From positions 1 through 29,851 of IMG/VR virus record IMGVR_UViG_3300009091_000045: a stretch of 29,851 nt of DNA, one strand, 5' to 3'. Origin of the DNA: a virus. A program made the position numbers and the translations under genes. Positions 3,070-9,837 of the stretch are shown piece after piece. The notes beneath the pieces are model-generated. The model did not search any database and was not told the origin of the DNA. It was given only the letters and a program-made list of their open reading frames with translations. The stretch's first letter is position 1. Each line of letters opens with the position of its first letter.

Positions 3070-3214
3070 GGAAGAAGCGTTGCTGTTGGCGCGATTCCGC
3101 AAGCTCCGCGCCGACTGGCGGCGCACCGTGTTGGGGATCCTCGAAGCATGTCTGGATCTCCAGGCCAAACATCCGGAGAACAAGCCGCGCCTGCGGCGAA
3201 AGGACATCCATTGA
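3035..3214 (+). CDS. Small helical protein upstream of the exonuclease (59 aa)
   Basis: This frame is easy to miss because it is short and starts with GTG (3035) inside the end of the preceding gene. GGGAGGG at about 3020-3026 is a good ribosome site. The acidic N-terminus (TDTGTEPTIEEEA) is followed by one long amphipathic helix (LLLARFRKLRADWRRTVLGI and on) and a basic tail. Its TGA at 3212-3214 overlaps the TTG start of the exonuclease (TTGA). The coupled position suggests a partner or regulator of that enzyme, but no family is recognised. Confidence 0.55.
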   Translation: MSTDTGTEPTIEEEALLLARFRKLRADWRRTVLGILEACLDLQAKHPENKPRLRRKDIH

Positions 3215-4104
3215 AGGTCAAGACCATCGCACCCAACCGTGAGGAGTGGTTGCGCGCCAGGCTGGAGGGCATCGGCGCCTCTGACGCGGCGGCAGCCGTA
3301 GGGCTGAGTCCCTACGTCACGCCCCTGCAACTGTGGGCAGAGAAGACAGGACGCACCCCGCCGGCAGAGGAGAACGACGCAATGCGCTGGGGACATCGGC
3401 TTCAGCGTGTGGTGGGCGAAGCGTTCGAGGAGGAGACGCACCGCATCGTCGAGGCCGCAGGCGAGTTCACCATCTACGCCCACGACGATCCGGACAGCGG
3501 GTTCTTGCTGGCGACCCTGGACTTCTTTCAGCGCAAGGGATTCGGGCAGCCGCTGGGGATCCTGGAAGCGAAGACCGCTGGTTACATGAAGAAGGACGAC
3601 TGGGCCGACGCGCCGCCGATTCACTACGTCTGCCAGGTGCAGCATCAGATGATGGTGACGGGGCTGCCCTTCGCCTCCATTGCGGCGTTGATTGGCGGGC
3701 AGAAGTTCGTCTGGCAGGACATCACTCCCGATGTCGAGTTCCAGAACCGGCTCCGCTATGCCCTGGAGAAGTTCTGGCACGACTACGTGAAGCGCGACGT
3801 GCCGCCGCCGGCAATGGCCGACGACAACAGCATCCTGGGCCAGGTGATCAAGGAAAGGAAGGACCAGTTGATCGTGGCGCCCGGTGCCGCCATCGACCTG
3901 GACATGGCGCGCTGTGCCGCCATCGAGGACATCAAGCGGGCCGAGCGTCGGCGCGACGAGGCGGAAGCGCAGTTGAAGATGATGATTGGGGAGAGTGCCG
4001 GCATTGCGCTCCCCAACGGTGTGGTTTACAAGTGGCGCACCGAACACCGCAATGCCTACACCGTGCCGGCCAGCGAACGGCGCACCCTGAGAAGGAGTCA
4101 GTAG
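3211..4104 (+). CDS. YqaJ/lambda-exonuclease-like recombination nuclease
   Basis: The protein (297 aa) belongs to the PD-(D/E)XK viral recombinase family. These exonucleases resect one strand of a double-strand end so that the partner annealase, here RecT encoded 3 kb downstream, can pair the single strand. Visible motifs are REEWLRARLEGIGASD (10-25), the WGHRLQRVVGEAF helix with Glu70, the catalytic Asp104 in LATLDFF, GILEAKT with Glu119 and Lys121, and the HYVCQVQHQM helix (138-147). The C-terminal third is a helical extension. I start at TTG 3211, with AAAGGA 6 nt upstream and TTGA overlap with the previous stop. ATG 3148 would add 21 residues that are a shadow of that gene. Confidence 0.9.
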   Translation: MKVKTIAPNREEWLRARLEGIGASDAAAAVGLSPYVTPLQLWAEKTGRTPPAEENDAMRWGHRLQRVVGEAFEEETHRIVEAAGEFTIYAHDDPDSGFLLATLDFFQRKGFGQPLGILEAKTAGYMKKDDWADAPPIHYVCQVQHQMMVTGLPFASIAALIGGQKFVWQDITPDVEFQNRLRYALEKFWHDYVKRDVPPPAMADDNSILGQVIKERKDQLIVAPGAAIDLDMARCAAIEDIKRAERRRDEAEAQLKMMIGESAGIALPNGVVYKWRTEHRNAYTVPASERRTLRRSQ

Positions 4105-4839
4105 GTGAACGAACAGCAGATCATTCAAGAACTGCCTGCCGCTGATCGGTCAGAGGTGAAGCAGCACCTGGGCAAGTGGCAGCCGCCCAAGGTGAACCTG
4201 CACAAGCTACCACCCGGCTCCATCGTCGTCGCTACGGGTGAACAGCCCCGGTTCAATGCGTTCTGGGCCTGCATCATCCGGACCCTTCGCACCTATCCCC
4301 AGGTGGACTTGAAGTGGGCGGCGAGCGTGGACATTTGCTACAACTGGAACGACGCCATCCGCCGCCGCGACACCATCGGAGAGTGGATCTGGACGATTGG
4401 CGACGACCACACCTGGGACGTGAACATCATCGAACGGCTGTGGGGCCATAACCGTGAGGTGATCGTGCCGCTGGTTCTCAAGCGGAGCTTCCCCCACACC
4501 CCGGTGATCTACGACGTGAACCACGCGCAAGCCATGCCCGCGCCCGCGCAGGCAGGACTGCGGGAAGTGTGGGCAGCCGGTGGCGCCGGCATGTTGATCC
4601 GCGAGTCAGCCCTGGCGCGCATCCCGCCGCCCTGGTTCGAGTTCATGTCCGAGAACAACGAGCGAGCCGGCGAAGACTTGATGTTCTGCCGCAAGCTCCG
4701 CGAGGCCGGCATCCGGATCTGGTGCGACCTCGACGCATGGATGGGACACATTACCCCGGTGGAGATATGGCCGATCAGGAACGAACAGGGACAGTGGGGC
4801 ACCCAGTACCGCAACGTCCTCAAGGCAGACGTTCTCTGA
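4105..4839 (+). CDS. GT-A fold glycosyltransferase (GT2-like)
   Basis: The protein (244 aa) transfers a sugar from a nucleotide donor to an unknown acceptor. A first beta strand (SIVVATG, 39-45) leads into helices. The metal/nucleotide motif is WIWTIGDDHTWD (94-105, Asp100-Asp101). Later GGAGMLIRESAL (159-170) and AGEDLMFCRKLREAG (188-202, Glu190-Asp191) match the acceptor-side ED motif, and His215 in WMGHI sits where GT2 enzymes often hold a metal ligand. The GTG start at 4105 directly follows the exonuclease stop, with AGAAGGAG at 4089-4096. Its neighbours are an acyltransferase and a membrane protein, so virion, host-surface or DNA glycosylation are all possible. Confidence 0.8.
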   Translation: MNEQQIIQELPAADRSEVKQHLGKWQPPKVNLHKLPPGSIVVATGEQPRFNAFWACIIRTLRTYPQVDLKWAASVDICYNWNDAIRRRDTIGEWIWTIGDDHTWDVNIIERLWGHNREVIVPLVLKRSFPHTPVIYDVNHAQAMPAPAQAGLREVWAAGGAGMLIRESALARIPPPWFEFMSENNERAGEDLMFCRKLREAGIRIWCDLDAWMGHITPVEIWPIRNEQGQWGTQYRNVLKADVL

Positions 4840-5279
4840 GCTACACCAAGGTCTGCGAGCATTGCGGCAAGGACTACTACCCGATCCGTCACGACCAGCG
4901 ATTCTGTTCGCGGGAGTGCAGCCACTGGCTGCGCCTGCTGGAGCCGAAGAAGTGCAAGATCTGCGGCCAGGGGTTCCAGCCGGCCAGGCGGCGCGTGCGC
5001 TACTGCTCGATCACCTGTGCGCGCAAGAGCCGGGCGATCCAACTGGGCGACGACTGGATGCTGCATCATATGCGCCGAATGCGGGACGCTGCCGCGCAGG
5101 CGCATCACCAGGCGGCTGTAGACCGCGCCGTCCAACAACTCCCCGCCGACATTACCGCCGCGCAGGCGTATCGGCTGGGCGTCACGCGAGGCCGCAACAT
5201 CGGCTACCAGGCCGGATTCCGGATCGCGCGTCGATTTGAAGCCGAACTGAAGCGGCTGAAGGAAGGGCAGGATGCCTGA
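4767..5279 (+). CDS. Double zinc-ribbon protein (up to 170 aa)
   Basis: Two consecutive CxxC...CxxxC modules are clear: Cys30/33/47/51 and Cys63/66/80/84, numbered from ATG 4767. They resemble the short phage zinc ribbons of the FCSxxC type. The second half is helical and basic, with many Ala, Gln and Arg (AVDRAVQQLPADITAAQAYR) and ends in a charged helix. The start is uncertain: ATG 4767 has GGTGGAG only 2 nt away and overlaps the glycosyltransferase by 73 nt, whereas a CTG at 4836 would give CTGA coupling and 147 residues. The ribbons begin after both. Nucleic-acid or protein binding is likely, its target unknown. Confidence 0.7.
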   Translation: MADQERTGTVGHPVPQRPQGRRSLSYTKVCEHCGKDYYPIRHDQRFCSRECSHWLRLLEPKKCKICGQGFQPARRRVRYCSITCARKSRAIQLGDDWMLHHMRRMRDAAAQAHHQAAVDRAVQQLPADITAAQAYRLGVTRGRNIGYQAGFRIARRFEAELKRLKEGQDA

Positions 5280-5868
5280 CTACATGGTTCACCCGACTGC
5301 CATCATCGAGGACAACGTGCAGATCGGTGAGGGCACCCGGATCTGGCACAAGACGCACATCCGCGCCGGCGCCATTATCGGCGCCAACTGCAACATCGGC
5401 GGCAACGTCTACATCGACAAGAACGTGAAGATTGGCGACGGCTGCAAGATCCAGAACAACTGCCTGGTGTACGAAGGCTGCCACTTGGGCAACAGCGTGT
5501 TCCTGGGGCCGAACGTCGTCACGACCAACGACCTCCGCCCGCGCGCCAACACCCAGGCCGGCGAGTGGACGATCACGCACACGCAATTCGACGACGGCTG
5601 TTCTGTCGGCGCCGGCAGCGTGATTGTCTGCGGCGTCTACCTGGGCAAGCACTGCATGATCGCCGCCGGCAGCGTCGTCACGCGCGACGTGCAGCCGTTC
5701 ACGATGGTCAAGGGCAACCCCGCGCGGCCATGCGCGACGGTGTGCCACTGTGGCCGACCCTGCCGCCCAGTCGGGAATCGTCGGTTCTCGTATCGCTGCA
5801 TGGCGTGCCAGAAGATCATCACGTTCACCGAAGACGTGAAGGTTAGGGACTTGGAGGGGATCCGATGA
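5272..5868 (+). CDS. Left-handed beta-helix acyltransferase, WlbB/WbpD-like, with C-terminal zinc ribbon
   Basis: Residues 7-150 are hexapeptide repeats ([LIV]GxxxxI type) that form a left-handed beta-helix. HPTAII, IGEGTRIWHKTHI, NCNIGGNVYID, VTTNDLRPRA and GAGSVIVCGV are typical of WlbB/WbpD-type enzymes that acetylate a 3-amino group on UDP-sugars with acetyl-CoA. After the usual GNPAR end (148-152), this protein has Cys154, Cys158, Cys160, Cys164, Cys176 and Cys179 in a ribbon-like pattern. The WlbB family ends here or with a different short tail, as I remember it, so the ribbon is unusual. It overlaps the preceding gene by 8 nt and is followed by ATGA coupling to the membrane protein. 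Confidence 0.85.
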   Translation: MPDYMVHPTAIIEDNVQIGEGTRIWHKTHIRAGAIIGANCNIGGNVYIDKNVKIGDGCKIQNNCLVYEGCHLGNSVFLGPNVVTTNDLRPRANTQAGEWTITHTQFDDGCSVGAGSVIVCGVYLGKHCMIAAGSVVTRDVQPFTMVKGNPARPCATVCHCGRPCRPVGNRRFSYRCMACQKIITFTEDVKVRDLEGIR

Positions 5869-6698
5869 TTGTCGCCGCCGCGATGAGTGCGCTCGCCTGG
5901 TTCCTGATCCGCCTGGACGAGCGGAGTTCGATGGCGCCCGACAGCCTCTACTATGCTCTGATGGCGCGGGGCGAGAAGGTGCCGCGCCCCTTCTGCGGAC
6001 GCTGGCTGTTCCCGCTGATCTTCCGCGAACGGCTCCGCGCCTGGAACGTCATGGTCGCCGTGATGTTCGTTGTCGGCGGCTGCGCGATGTACACCCTGGC
6101 CGGCAACAACCTGGTCGCCACGTTGCTGTGGGTCTGGCTGCCCAACACCCGCTTCCATCTCCGACACCCGATGCTGGTCGATCTGCCGGGCATCGTCCTG
6201 CCGATGGCAGCGGCAGCGTGGGCGCCCGATTCGCTGGCCTGGAAGCTGCCCCTGGCGTTCTTGATTGGCGCCACGCGCGAGTGGGGCGTCATCTGGTATG
6301 CCATCCTGGCAGCCTGTCCGCCGGCGCTACTGGCTGGCTTCGCCGGCACGGCAGTCGGCTACTTCTGGAAGGGCAGGCCAGGCCAGCAAGGGGACAACGA
6401 CTTCATCACCGATCCCTTCCACACCGTCACGCGCTACCGCATGGGGCACCTGTTCAACTACCGGCTCATGCTGCTGCCGTGGGGCATGGTCCTGCCGCTC
6501 GCCGTGTTCTCTGGCGTCATGCCCTGGCACTGGTTTATCCTAGCCTACGCTCCGCTGGTCATTGCGACCGATCACGCACGCATCTACCTCTACGCCGCTC
6601 CCGTTCTGATACTGGCTGCCGTGCAGGCGCCTGTGCCCGCGATCCTCTGGGGTGGGATCGTTCTCGCGCACGTCTTCAACCCCTATCGAGGTGCCTGA
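5865..6698 (+). CDS. Polytopic membrane protein, possibly GT-C-like
   Basis: The protein (277 aa) has about six to eight hydrophobic segments, for example near residues 1-15, 62-80, 83-92, 108-120, 127-150, 153-168, 204-220, 223-236 and 243-270. An N-terminal soluble loop after the first span contains DSLYYALMARG and VPRPFCGRWLFP (about 26-49). An acidic residue in the first large loop and an R.L.P pattern recall membrane-bound, polyprenol-phosphate-sugar-dependent GT-C glycosyltransferases, but this resemblance is from memory and weak. The ATG at 5865 has GGAGGGG upstream. Position next to the glycosyltransferase and acyltransferase supports a role in sugar transfer or export. Confidence 0.65.
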   Translation: MIVAAAMSALAWFLIRLDERSSMAPDSLYYALMARGEKVPRPFCGRWLFPLIFRERLRAWNVMVAVMFVVGGCAMYTLAGNNLVATLLWVWLPNTRFHLRHPMLVDLPGIVLPMAAAAWAPDSLAWKLPLAFLIGATREWGVIWYAILAACPPALLAGFAGTAVGYFWKGRPGQQGDNDFITDPFHTVTRYRMGHLFNYRLMLLPWGMVLPLAVFSGVMPWHWFILAYAPLVIATDHARIYLYAAPVLILAAVQAPVPAILWGGIVLAHVFNPYRGA

Positions 6699-6964
6699 TG
6701 CCTGGAGAACATGCCAAAGGCGTCCCGCTGTGTTCGCTGTGGCTGAACACGACGAAGGACGGACGTGAGTACTACCGTGGCCGGCTGGGCGATGCCAGCA
6801 TCATGGGCTGGATCAACACGGAGAAGACGAACGAGAAACAGCCCGACATCCGCCTGATGCTCTACCCCGCGCCGACGAAGCGCGAGGAGGGCAGCGAGCG
6901 CCCGGCGCCCAAGCCGAAGCCGGCTGCCGGCACTCCCAACTCTGACGACGACATCCCGTACTGA
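6698..6964 (+). CDS. Small SSB-like protein with acidic DDDIPY tail (88 aa)
   Basis: The start ATG overlaps the preceding stop (TGATG). Residues 8-56 are beta-rich and contain SLWLNTTKDGREYYRGRLGD (13-32) and a KQPDIRLMLYP strand, similar to short DUF736-like or SSB-like phage proteins. A Lys/Pro linker (57-78) ends in SDDDIPY, almost the same as the DDDIPF tip of bacterial SSB that recruits RecQ, RecO, PriA and other SSB-interacting proteins. It lies 8 nt upstream of RecT, so a role in coating or handing over single-stranded DNA is likely. The fold itself is inferred. Confidence 0.65.
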   Translation: MPGEHAKGVPLCSLWLNTTKDGREYYRGRLGDASIMGWINTEKTNEKQPDIRLMLYPAPTKREEGSERPAPKPKPAAGTPNSDDDIPY

Positions 6965-6972
6965 GGTGAACT

Positions 6973-7917
6973 GTGGGCGAACTGGTCACAACCAAGCAGA
7001 AGGGGTTGACGATCCGCGACATGTTCGAGGCGCGGAAGCACGAGATCGCCAAAGCGATCCCGCGCGGCCTCGACCCGCAACGCTTCCTGCGCGTGGCGTT
7101 GACGACGATCCAGAACAACCAGAAGCTGCTCGACTGCACTCCGTCGAGCCTCATGGCGTGCGTGATGCAGGCAAGCCAGTGGGGGCTGGAACTGGATCAG
7201 GTGTTGGGCCAGGCATACCTGGTGCCCTACGCCGGCAAGGCAACCCTGATCATCGGCTACCGTGGCCTGCTGGAGATGGCGCGCCGCCACGTCTCCATCC
7301 AGAGCATCACGGCCCGCCTCGTCTACGAGAAGGACAGCCTGAACGTCGAGTACGGGCTGGAGCCTGTCCTGGAACACCGTCCCTACCTCAACCCGGATCG
7401 GGGCGAGGTTGTCGGCGCCTATTGCGTCTGGCGCCTGAAGGATGTAGGCGATCCCGAGTTCGTCTACATGCCCCGGCATGAACTGGACGCCATCCGCGAA
7501 CGCTCCCGCGCGTCCGAGTCTGGCCCCTGGGTGACGGACTTCGACATGATGTGCCTCAAGAGCGTCATCCGGCGGGCGAGCCGCTTCTGGCCGCAGTCCA
7601 CCGACCTGGGCCGCGCCGTCGCCATCGACGAGCGGCAGGAACTGGGCCTGGACATGGGGCACGTCGAGTACGACATCGAGCCGACACCGGAACCGAAGAA
7701 GCTGGCCGATGCGCTGCCGCCGATCCCCACCCCAGCCGTCACCAGCAGCAGCAACACCTCCACCGCAGAGGATCGCGCCATCGACGCCGAGATTGCCGCG
7801 AAGGAGACGAAGCCCGACTTCGTACCTCACCCCGTCACGCCGACCATTGACCCGGCGGCGCGCGAAGACATCCGGAAAGAACACGATGCCAGACACGAAC
7901 CCAGAAAGGCCCGGTGA
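6973..7917 (+). CDS. recT: RecT-family single-strand annealing protein
   Basis: RecT binds single-stranded DNA left by the phage exonuclease and anneals it to a complementary strand. The core runs from about residue 15 to 225. Recognisable parts are QRFLRVALTTIQNN (36-49), CTPSSLMACVMQASQWGLELD (55-75), GQAYLVPYAGKATLIIGYRGLLEMARR (79-105), and the C-terminal DFDMMCLKSVIRRASRFWP (189-207). The last 80 residues form a Pro/Ser/Thr linker and a charged tail. The start is GTG 6973, with GAGGTGA at 6963-6969. It follows the SSB-like gene and overlaps the zinc-ribbon gene by 32 nt, completing a nuclease-SSB-annealase set. Confidence 0.95.
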   Translation: MGELVTTKQKGLTIRDMFEARKHEIAKAIPRGLDPQRFLRVALTTIQNNQKLLDCTPSSLMACVMQASQWGLELDQVLGQAYLVPYAGKATLIIGYRGLLEMARRHVSIQSITARLVYEKDSLNVEYGLEPVLEHRPYLNPDRGEVVGAYCVWRLKDVGDPEFVYMPRHELDAIRERSRASESGPWVTDFDMMCLKSVIRRASRFWPQSTDLGRAVAIDERQELGLDMGHVEYDIEPTPEPKKLADALPPIPTPAVTSSSNTSTAEDRAIDAEIAAKETKPDFVPHPVTPTIDPAAREDIRKEHDARHEPRKAR

Positions 7918-8128
7918 TGTCCCACCCCCTCGATCCTGCTGGTGCCGAGCCTGTGGTGGAACCGACTTCATCTGGGATCGACTCCTTCTTTGGAGGTGTG
8001 CCGACTGTGGATGCCCGGATGGCTGGACTCCGCTCGAACATGGGCACTTCATCAGCCGTGACGGCACCGCCACGCTCCGCACCCCTCAGAACGGCCCTGG
8101 GGGTTCACTTCTCCGGCAAGTGCGGTGA
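7886..8128 (+). CDS. Small zinc-ribbon protein (80 aa)
   Basis: A CRAC pair (Cys20, Cys23) and a CADC pair (Cys38, Cys41) are separated by 14 residues with an aromatic core (FIWDRLLLWR), a typical zinc-ribbon or rubredoxin-like knuckle. The start is ATG 7886 with GGAAAGA upstream, inside the 3' end of recT. The region before residue 18 and after residue 55 is low in complexity. This frame is more protein-like than the methyltransferase frame in the same stretch, so I shorten the methyltransferase. Position between recT and the methyltransferase suggests a DNA-transaction accessory role. Confidence 0.6.
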   Translation: MPDTNPERPGDVPPPRSCWCRACGGTDFIWDRLLLWRCADCGCPDGWTPLEHGHFISRDGTATLRTPQNGPGGSLLRQVR

Positions 8129-8576
8129 CTGGCGCACGCCTCCCGTCCTCTGGAATCGCCTGCTGCAAGAGTTCGCCTTCGACCTCGACGTGGCGGCGAC
8201 TCCAGAGGATCGCCTGATCGGCGTCAGGTCCGCCGGCTGGGATGCCCTGGAACCGCTCGCATCCTGGGGATACGTCAACTACATCAACCCGCCCTACGGC
8301 AACGTCGTCGGCAAGTGGATCGACGCCGTGCAGGTTCACAACAACATCGACGCGGCGACCGTCGTCATGCTGCTGCCGGCCAGGACGGACACCCTCTGGT
8401 GGCATGGGGGCGTTCACACGGCGGACGAGGTGCGCTTCATCAAGGGGCGCCTCAAGTTTCTGAACAAGGACGGACTGGAGATGAGCAGTGCGCCGTTCCC
8501 GTCCTGTGTAGCGGTGTGGTATCCCCGCGCCGGCCTCCGCAAGGCAGCCCCCCGCTTCTCGACGTTCCAGTGGTAG
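8040..8576 (+). CDS. Phage-type DNA N6-adenine methyltransferase (Dam family)
   Basis: The protein (178 aa) transfers a methyl group from S-adenosylmethionine to adenine in DNA. It carries the phage Dam-type signatures WRTPPVLWNRL (31-41), FDLDVAATPEDR (47-58), the catalytic NPPYG (83-87), LLPARTDTLWWH (111-122), GRLKF (136-140) and APFPS (151-155). Length fits the family (about 160-180 aa). Most family members act at GATC, which fits the high GATC density of this window. The open frame reaches ATG 7914 or 7917, but the extra residues look like a shadow of the zinc-ribbon gene. ATG 8040 is my choice, without a clear ribosome site. Confidence 0.85.
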   Translation: MGTSSAVTAPPRSAPLRTALGVHFSGKCGDWRTPPVLWNRLLQEFAFDLDVAATPEDRLIGVRSAGWDALEPLASWGYVNYINPPYGNVVGKWIDAVQVHNNIDAATVVMLLPARTDTLWWHGGVHTADEVRFIKGRLKFLNKDGLEMSSAPFPSCVAVWYPRAGLRKAAPRFSTFQW

Positions 8577-8582
8577 CCAGAC

Positions 8583-9635
8583 ATGCGGGTCCATCCGAAC
8601 TTCTGGCTGGGAACCAGCGGGCAGCAGTTGCGGGGCATGGGCACCGACCATCTGCTGCTCGCGCTGTACTTCCTGACCAACCCGCACGTCAATCTCTACG
8701 GGTTGTACTACCTGCCCGTGGCGACCATCACAGCGGAGACAGGAATCAAGAAGAACCTGCACGGGATCATCGACCATATCGCCACGACCGAGTTCGCGTA
8801 CTACCGGGACAGTTGGATCTGGGTGCCCCGGATGCTCCGGTTCCAAATGGGCGACTTCTCGCCGGCGGACAACCGGCTGAAGTCCGCCGCCCGCTGGTAC
8901 GCGCAACTCCCTTCGACATGCCCTTTCCTCTCCGCCTTCTGGGCGGAATACAACGGTGCGTTGCCGTTGGGGGAGTGTCGGGGGACGGTGGAGCCGGCGC
9001 CCGCTGGGAACACAGTCAAGGATTCATCCGCCTTGGTTGTGGTGGGGGCGCCGGCCCCCACTGTCGATCCCCAGCGTCTGCTCTTTGAACACTGGTGGGA
9101 GTTGTACCCAAAGAAGCACGGGAAGCGCGCCGCCTGGGCGGAGTGGCTGAAGCTGAAGCCGACCGGCACCCAGGTCGAAGCCTGGTGCGACACCCTGGTG
9201 CGCCAGACCCAGAGCCGCGAGTGGCTGAAGGACGGGGGACAGTTCATCCCCGATCCGGAACGCTACCTGAAGCGCGGCAAGTACGAGGACATCCTGCTGG
9301 ATCGGCCCATTGTGGGCGAGCGACAGACGAACAACTTTTCGGCCCTGGCCGATTTTGCCCAGAGGAAGTTGACCGATGAGCGTAGACCGCCGGCTGGCCC
9401 TGTGGGGAGAGACGATGGCGAAGCTGGGCGCCGCCTTCGACAAGACACTGGACCAACCCCAGTTGGACATCTACTGGGAACAGTTGTCCGACGTGAACCC
9501 GTCCCTGCTCCTCGAAGCCGCCCTGAAGTGGATCAAGGAACAGACCCGCTTCCCCCGGATCGCGGATCTCCGCGAGTACTGCGACCGAGTGAGGCCACAG
9601 CAGGCACTGATCCCCGCGCCCACCATCGACGGTGA
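8583..9635 (+). CDS. Phage replication initiation protein, probable real end near 9372
   Basis: The N-terminal 90 residues (LLLALYFLTNPHVNLYGLYY, then ETGIKKNLHGIIDHI) look like the winged-helix domain of phage replisome organisers that bind the origin. A linker follows (about 128-160). The C-terminal domain has YPKKHGKRAAWAEW (about 174-187) and GQFIPDPERYLKRGKYED (about 219-236), which recur in phage replication and primosome proteins. The annotated frame runs 260 nt into the helicase-loader gene, and those last 85 residues are Arg/Pro/Asp-rich shadow sequence. A shift to the +1 frame would end at TGA 9370-9372, 3 nt before the next ATG. The role is to open the origin and recruit the loader. 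Confidence 0.75.
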   Translation: MRVHPNFWLGTSGQQLRGMGTDHLLLALYFLTNPHVNLYGLYYLPVATITAETGIKKNLHGIIDHIATTEFAYYRDSWIWVPRMLRFQMGDFSPADNRLKSAARWYAQLPSTCPFLSAFWAEYNGALPLGECRGTVEPAPAGNTVKDSSALVVVGAPAPTVDPQRLLFEHWWELYPKKHGKRAAWAEWLKLKPTGTQVEAWCDTLVRQTQSREWLKDGGQFIPDPERYLKRGKYEDILLDRPIVGERQTNNFSALADFAQRKLTDERRPPAGPVGRDDGEAGRRLRQDTGPTPVGHLLGTVVRREPVPAPRSRPEVDQGTDPLPPDRGSPRVLRPSEATAGTDPRAHHRR

Positions 9636-9837
9636 GCCGACCTATCACTGCCCGATCTGCCAGGACCGCGAAGGTGCCTGGGAGTCGTTCACCAAGTACG
9701 TCGAAGCCTACGGATGCGAGGTGCCCTATGTCCGACGATGCTCCTGTTACCAGTCCAACCCCGTCCACGTTGCCCGACTCGAACAGGCCAGGAAGTACCA
9801 TGCCGAAGAACCCAACCGAAAGCGTTTCCGGTCCTGA
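9376..9837 (+). CDS. G39P-like replicative helicase loader with zinc-binding C-terminus
   Basis: The protein (153 aa) resembles loaders such as SPP1 G39P, which deliver a DnaB-type helicase to the initiator. The N-terminal domain (about 5-72) is helical, with GETMAKLGAAFDKTL, IYWEQLSDVNPSLLLEA and KWIKEQTRFPRIADLREYC, the last being the typical FP..ADLR signature. The C-terminal part has CPIC (Cys92, Cys95) and CSC (Cys122, Cys124), a probable metal site. The start is ATG 9376 with AGAGGAAG at 9360-9367. No helicase gene is in the window, so it probably recruits host DnaB. Confidence 0.75.
   Translation: MSVDRRLALWGETMAKLGAAFDKTLDQPQLDIYWEQLSDVNPSLLLEAALKWIKEQTRFPRIADLREYCDRVRPQQALIPAPTIDGEPTYHCPICQDREGAWESFTKYVEAYGCEVPYVRRCSCYQSNPVHVARLEQARKYHAEEPNRKRFRS

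Follow-up and report, generated by a model that had tools for sequence, protein, structure and literature searches.

Two-step glycosylation of the cell envelope by a GT-A enzyme and a polytopic membrane transferase is described for the Gtr, CsbB/YfhO- and Gtl-type systems (PMC3688519, PMC5836110). The enzyme that acetylates UDP-GlcNAc3NA on the route to UDP-ManNAc3NAcA is WbpD (PMC10622841). With respect to virions, A197 of STIV is a candidate for glycosylation of the coat (PMC4187194), and PMC11256854 cites a report of capsid glycans in the mycobacteriophages Che8 and Rita and places the glycosyltransferases of Maravista near the 3' genome end. The locus analysed here has most in common with the gtrABC O-antigen glucosylation cassettes of Salmonella and Shigella phages in that a phage-borne GT-A glycosyltransferase (GT) is accompanied by a polytopic membrane protein, and in that a related phage carries an integrase. 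It differs from them in several respects. Hydropathy gives no TM segment in the GT, whereas GtrB has C-terminal TM helices; the scanned ORFs of the window, itself a fragment that may lack the gene, include no GtrA flippase Pfam family; homology of the membrane protein to GtrC is not detectable; and the genes include a sugar N-acyltransferase and sit in a recombination operon.

The window, i.e. the whole stretch of DNA that was analysed, is a virus record of 29,851 bases and an incomplete fragment of a phage genome. Megablast of the window against phages gave no match. Its minus strand carries late genes, among them those for T7-like internal virion proteins and for further structural proteins. 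The plus strand carries, in order, a recombination exonuclease (exo), the GT, a zinc-finger protein, the acyltransferase, the membrane protein, an 88-aa ORF, RecT, a Dam-type methyltransferase and a replication protein (Table 1). The four cassette ORFs, from the GT to the membrane protein, were confirmed at the positions in the table, the zinc-finger ORF up to its end at 5279. From the GT to RecT neighbouring ORFs abut or overlap by at most about 70 bases, which agrees with the original prediction of a tightly coupled four-gene run inside a recombination module. The codon-position GC of the cassette is the same as that of its flanks (GC3 0.82-0.89) and the composition is uniform. In three annotated phages (phiOH2, Lilbeanie and Wyborn) exo and RecT are adjacent or split by one ORF of 60-120 aa, and in a further locus (L169) two genes separate them. 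Since the compared phages have zero to two genes at this place, about 2.6 kb of extra genes between exo and RecT is unusual in this small sample. The 88-aa ORF had been taken for a single-stranded DNA-binding protein (SSB). Its acidic DDDIPY tip is SSB-like, but it has no match in Pfam up to E 10 or in PHROGs up to 0.1 and no SSB or OB-fold family, and the assignment is unproven. Further downstream, the protein encoded at 11020-11595 matches phrog_1128 (moron, host takeover; E 7.5e-13).

Table 1 Features of the window. All positions are on the plus strand.
Feature	Position	Strand	Basis or remark
YqaJ/RecE-like recombination exonuclease (upstream boundary)	3148..4104	+	PF09588 5.4e-29, phrog_434 2.2e-70
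Predicted GT-A glycosyltransferase, 244 aa, GTG start	4105..4839	+	AF2 model, Foldseek, phrog_1574 2.5e-6
GT motif G99-D100-D101-H102 at DxD position	4399..4410	+	alignments; subfamily pattern commonly G/A-D-D-H
GT motif G189-E190-D191	4669..4677	+	invariant in 37-sequence alignment
GT invariant His215 (GHITP)	4747..4749	+	alignments
Zinc-finger protein, two Cys clusters	4767..5279	+	start ATG 4767 (170 aa) or CTG 4836 (147 aa)
Putative WlbB/WbpD-type left-handed beta-helix sugar N-acyltransferase, 198 aa	5272..5868	+	3mqg, PF00132
T85-N86 of TN..PR motif	5524..5529	+	common with WlbB (3mqg)
Acyltransferase C-terminal zinc ribbon C158, C160, C164, C176, C179	5743..5808	+	cysteine tail
Polytopic membrane protein, 277 aa	5865..6698	+	hydropathy; ATGA overlap with acyltransferase gene
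88-aa ORF, acidic DDDIPY tail	6698..6964	+	without family match
RecT-like annealing protein (downstream boundary)	6973..7917	+	PF03837 7.5e-47, phrog_148 4e-75

The AF2 model of the GT, built from a 37-sequence alignment (pLDDT 82.7, pTM 0.78), has a GT-A fold. Foldseek matches it to COLGALT1, LH3, mimivirus R699, STIV A197 and ppGalNAc-T, and many GTs of uncultured phages match as well. Against the PDB there were 68 matches at E<=0.001, and nearly all of the best 50 of these 68 are known glycosyltransferases. Such matches of a predicted model at the level of the fold leave the donor and the acceptor unfixed. At the DxD position the first Asp is replaced by Gly99, followed by D100-D101-H102. 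A degenerate GT with a lost DxD was considered and set aside, as D-D-H is common to most of the clade of this enzyme. The model and the family motifs thus uphold the GT-A glycosyltransferase as a predicted enzyme and, at the level of fold and motifs, lend no support to the refuting case of a model without a donor pocket. The GT resembles STIV A197 and the short phage GT-A enzymes of the phrog_1574 type that lie by capsid genes in its GT-A fold and its (D)xD, ED and H motifs. Unlike them, it belongs to a separate clade, in which G/A-D-D-H prevails and the C-terminus extends beyond the conserved His, and it is linked to acyltransferase and membrane genes.

The WlbB/WbpD-like acyltransferase of the original prediction also stands on sequence comparison. 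In the PDB it matches WlbB (3mqg, 3e-35 over residues 6-161) and 4mzu (2e-30); hexapeptide repeats are found (PF00132 1e-25), and the TN..PR motif (T85 N86 with PRA) is present in 82/82 homologues examined. We take the Asn of this motif to have a catalytic role. The protein is like the 3-N-acetyltransferases of the UDP-ManNAc3NAcA pathway in fold family, length and the TN..PR motif, and like many cellular WlbB/WbpD members it has a C-terminal zinc ribbon. This ribbon had been singled out as an unusual feature; it was rejected as a novelty and is in fact ordinary, with a comparable C-terminal cysteine tail in 54 of the 82 homologues. Unlike in the WlbB/WbpD systems, WbpA, B, E and I were not found beside the acyltransferase gene in the window or in its closest relative, L231. 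No Wbp pathway partner (WbpA/B/E) was seen among the scanned ORFs of the window, and the ORFs called in the L231 contig include no relative of WbpE, WbpB or a dehydrogenase. Its substrate would therefore come from the host, or be a different one; since amino-sugar synthesis genes were not found beside either module among the scanned ORFs, we infer that it is host-made.

The membrane protein has about eight hydrophobic segments by hydropathy; GT-C enzymes have 8-13 TM helices and carry an acidic motif in an extracellular loop. It has no match in Pfam, PHROGs, PDB, phages, plasmids and sampled genomes, and the only relative found is in L231. As single-sequence viral queries, neither it nor RecT found anything. 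In the genome sampling, a match in L168 that lies antisense to an HlyD-like gene and two weak fragment matches were judged to be due to chance. Its single-sequence AF2 model has a pLDDT of 46. Residues D18-E19 and D26 and the PDSxYY stretch after TM1 are conserved in the only two sequences, those of the window and L231. On sequence, it would represent an orphan family, possibly GT-C-like, with no detectable GT-C homology.

The closest relative of the GT is found in L231, a contig of 50.4 kb that also encodes a terminase, a major head protein and a tyrosine integrase (PF00589 1.8e-19). The order there is exo (5056-5982), GT (6013-6666), a 133-aa ORF, acyltransferase (7061-7678), membrane protein (7611-8453) and RecT (8553-9653). 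Protein identity between the window and L231 is 38% for exo, 45% for the GT, 46% for the acyltransferase, 38-39% for the membrane protein and 40% for RecT. As cassette and flanks have diverged alike, the trio of GT, acyltransferase and membrane protein looks inherited with the operon and kept intact, and not recently inserted. Because L231 keeps their order and place, these three genes form a retained module, probably vertically kept; within the loci examined, the full trio is kept in this one relative only. The phage of L231 also encodes a 627-aa protein (L310:22-1905) with a weak B_lectin (mannose-binding) match.

The fourth gene is different. No ATG, GTG or TTG of its ORF coincides with the GT stop. 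The probable start is ATG 4767, closely preceded by GGTGGAG, with CTG 4836 as a possible alternative. Its two zinc motifs have weak similarity to the zinc fingers in HNH/NinG proteins of phages (phrog_1271 2e-12, NinG 9e-5), pointing to DNA rather than sugar. An unrelated 133-aa ORF takes its place in L231, and the profile search of the gathered loci found no zinc-finger relative near any other GT. Since the gene between GT and acyltransferase differs between the two phages, we judged the zinc-finger gene to be a passenger outside the sugar module. The sugar cassette as originally proposed is thus retained for the GT, the acyltransferase and the membrane protein and given up for the zinc-ribbon protein.

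In order to place the GT in its wider family, we searched, with stop-to-stop profiles, a set of 214 viral loci for which the GT, the acyltransferase or the exonuclease had served as query and which extend about 6 kb to each side. The GT was found in 160/214 loci; these counts describe the gathered set and not nature. Of the loci with a GT, an acyltransferase was also present only in L212, L213, L231 and L234 (L237 is the same contig as L213), and the membrane protein in L231 only. No membrane partner was detected for the pairs of L212/L213 and L234. Every GT that neighbours an acyltransferase belongs to a single clade of 12 rows (support 99/97), which mostly has G/A-D-D-H for DxD and extra residues after the conserved His. 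The pair precedes the portal gene in L213, and in L234 it follows the major head gene and includes a gene of the UDP-glucose/GDP-mannose dehydrogenase family (PF03721 1e-25). Because the pairing repeats, once with a sugar dehydrogenase, GT and acyltransferase are likely to act on one sugar. As to whether the four genes travel together or separately, most GT relatives adjoin capsid or tail genes without an acyltransferase, and L231 keeps three of the four. Many relatives sit between a protein of about 100 aa and a virion structural protein: of 124 neighbouring proteins 28 belong to phrog_2941 (virion structural) and 28 to phrog_3982 (unknown), with others in tail or major head families. In MW202496, MW202711 and Mel-JY34 the relative directly follows the capsid gene. 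Other arrangements were also seen. One phage structural region has four tandem GT paralogues (L236:3469-6654) and L233 has two in tandem; another has several GTs clustered with a radical-SAM-like and a methyltransferase-like protein (L016:4652-11218); and a nucleotide-sugar epimerase (phrog_540) adjoins a large GT-containing protein among tail genes (L010:3651-6450).

The trio most likely tailors and transfers one acylated sugar. We consider remodelling of the host surface, i.e. of an envelope glycan, to be the leading reading (probability about 0.45) and rank it ahead of virion glycosylation. It is favoured because of the two-step precedent of a GT-A enzyme with a membrane transferase, the integrase of L231 and the early-gene position. 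The integrase is as expected for a temperate surface-converting phage, and the membrane protein is common only to the two phages that have the cassette in the recombination operon. According to the proposed mechanism, the acyltransferase would acylate the amino group of a host-supplied nucleotide-linked amino sugar, as its WlbB/WbpD homology suggests. The soluble GT-A enzyme would then place this acylated sugar on a lipid carrier or straight on an acceptor, and the polytopic membrane protein, perhaps GT-C-like, would move or transfer it at the outer face of the membrane. The net effect may be an early change of a host envelope glycan, for example in superinfection exclusion or lysogenic conversion. 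Against this reading stand the GT without a TM segment and without a GtrA-like flippase among the scanned window ORFs, the membrane protein without detectable GT-C homology, the acyltransferase pairs that lack a detected membrane partner, and the many GT relatives by capsid and tail genes. The module also lies in a recombination operon and not near an attachment site, and an integrase was not found among the scanned ORFs of the window fragment.

Most GT relatives flank head and tail genes, and the GT-acyltransferase pairs of L213 and L234 have portal or capsid genes close by. This would fit a different role, in which the GT works in the cytoplasm and puts the acylated sugar on a protein of the capsid or tail, and the membrane protein has a separate function. 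The fold matches to A197 and to protein-modifying GTs, and the capsid glycans cited for Che8 and Rita, agree with this. As in these mycobacteriophages, the GT lies away from structural genes. However, in both the window and L231 the GT stands apart from the structural genes and comes with a conserved membrane protein for which capsid glycosylation has no use. We regard virion glycosylation as less likely, and yet close behind host-surface remodelling because the wider GT family adjoins structural genes and A197 offers a precedent.

Alternatively, unrelated small genes may have gathered by chance between exo and RecT as independent passengers. The exchange of the zinc finger for the 133-aa ORF between the window and L231, and the GT without the other two genes in most phages, are what this would predict. 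We consider it improbable, since the order and place of the trio are kept at about 40-45% protein identity and the GT-acyltransferase pairing recurs in two other phages. Least probable of all is that GT and acyltransferase decorate a modified DNA base, with the position near exo, RecT and a Dam-like methyltransferase reflecting work on DNA, as the membrane protein would not be required and no base hydroxylase, hydroxymethylase, TET/JBP or thymidylate-synthase-like family occurs among the scanned ORFs of the window and the L231 contig, although a different phage (L007:8001-16471) has a WbpD/E/B-like acyltransferase-aminotransferase-oxidoreductase set between helicase and nuclease with, by sequence reading, apparent QueD, QueE and FolE close by, which hints at 7-deazaguanine DNA modification.

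Returning to host-surface remodelling, we propose, only tentatively, an undescribed module of a GT-A enzyme, a WbpD-type acyltransferase and a new GT-C-like membrane family, sited within the recombination operon, that rewrites acylated amino sugars of the envelope early in infection from host-made nucleotide amino sugars. Should the membrane protein prove to be a GT-C enzyme, it would represent a new family. The repeated pairing links phrog_1574, a large and mostly unannotated GT family of 'unknown function', to a sugar-tailoring enzyme and yields a concrete hypothesis on the donor sugar. It also follows that what lies between the recombination genes of a phage can be a sugar module that is old and under selection, and not random cargo.
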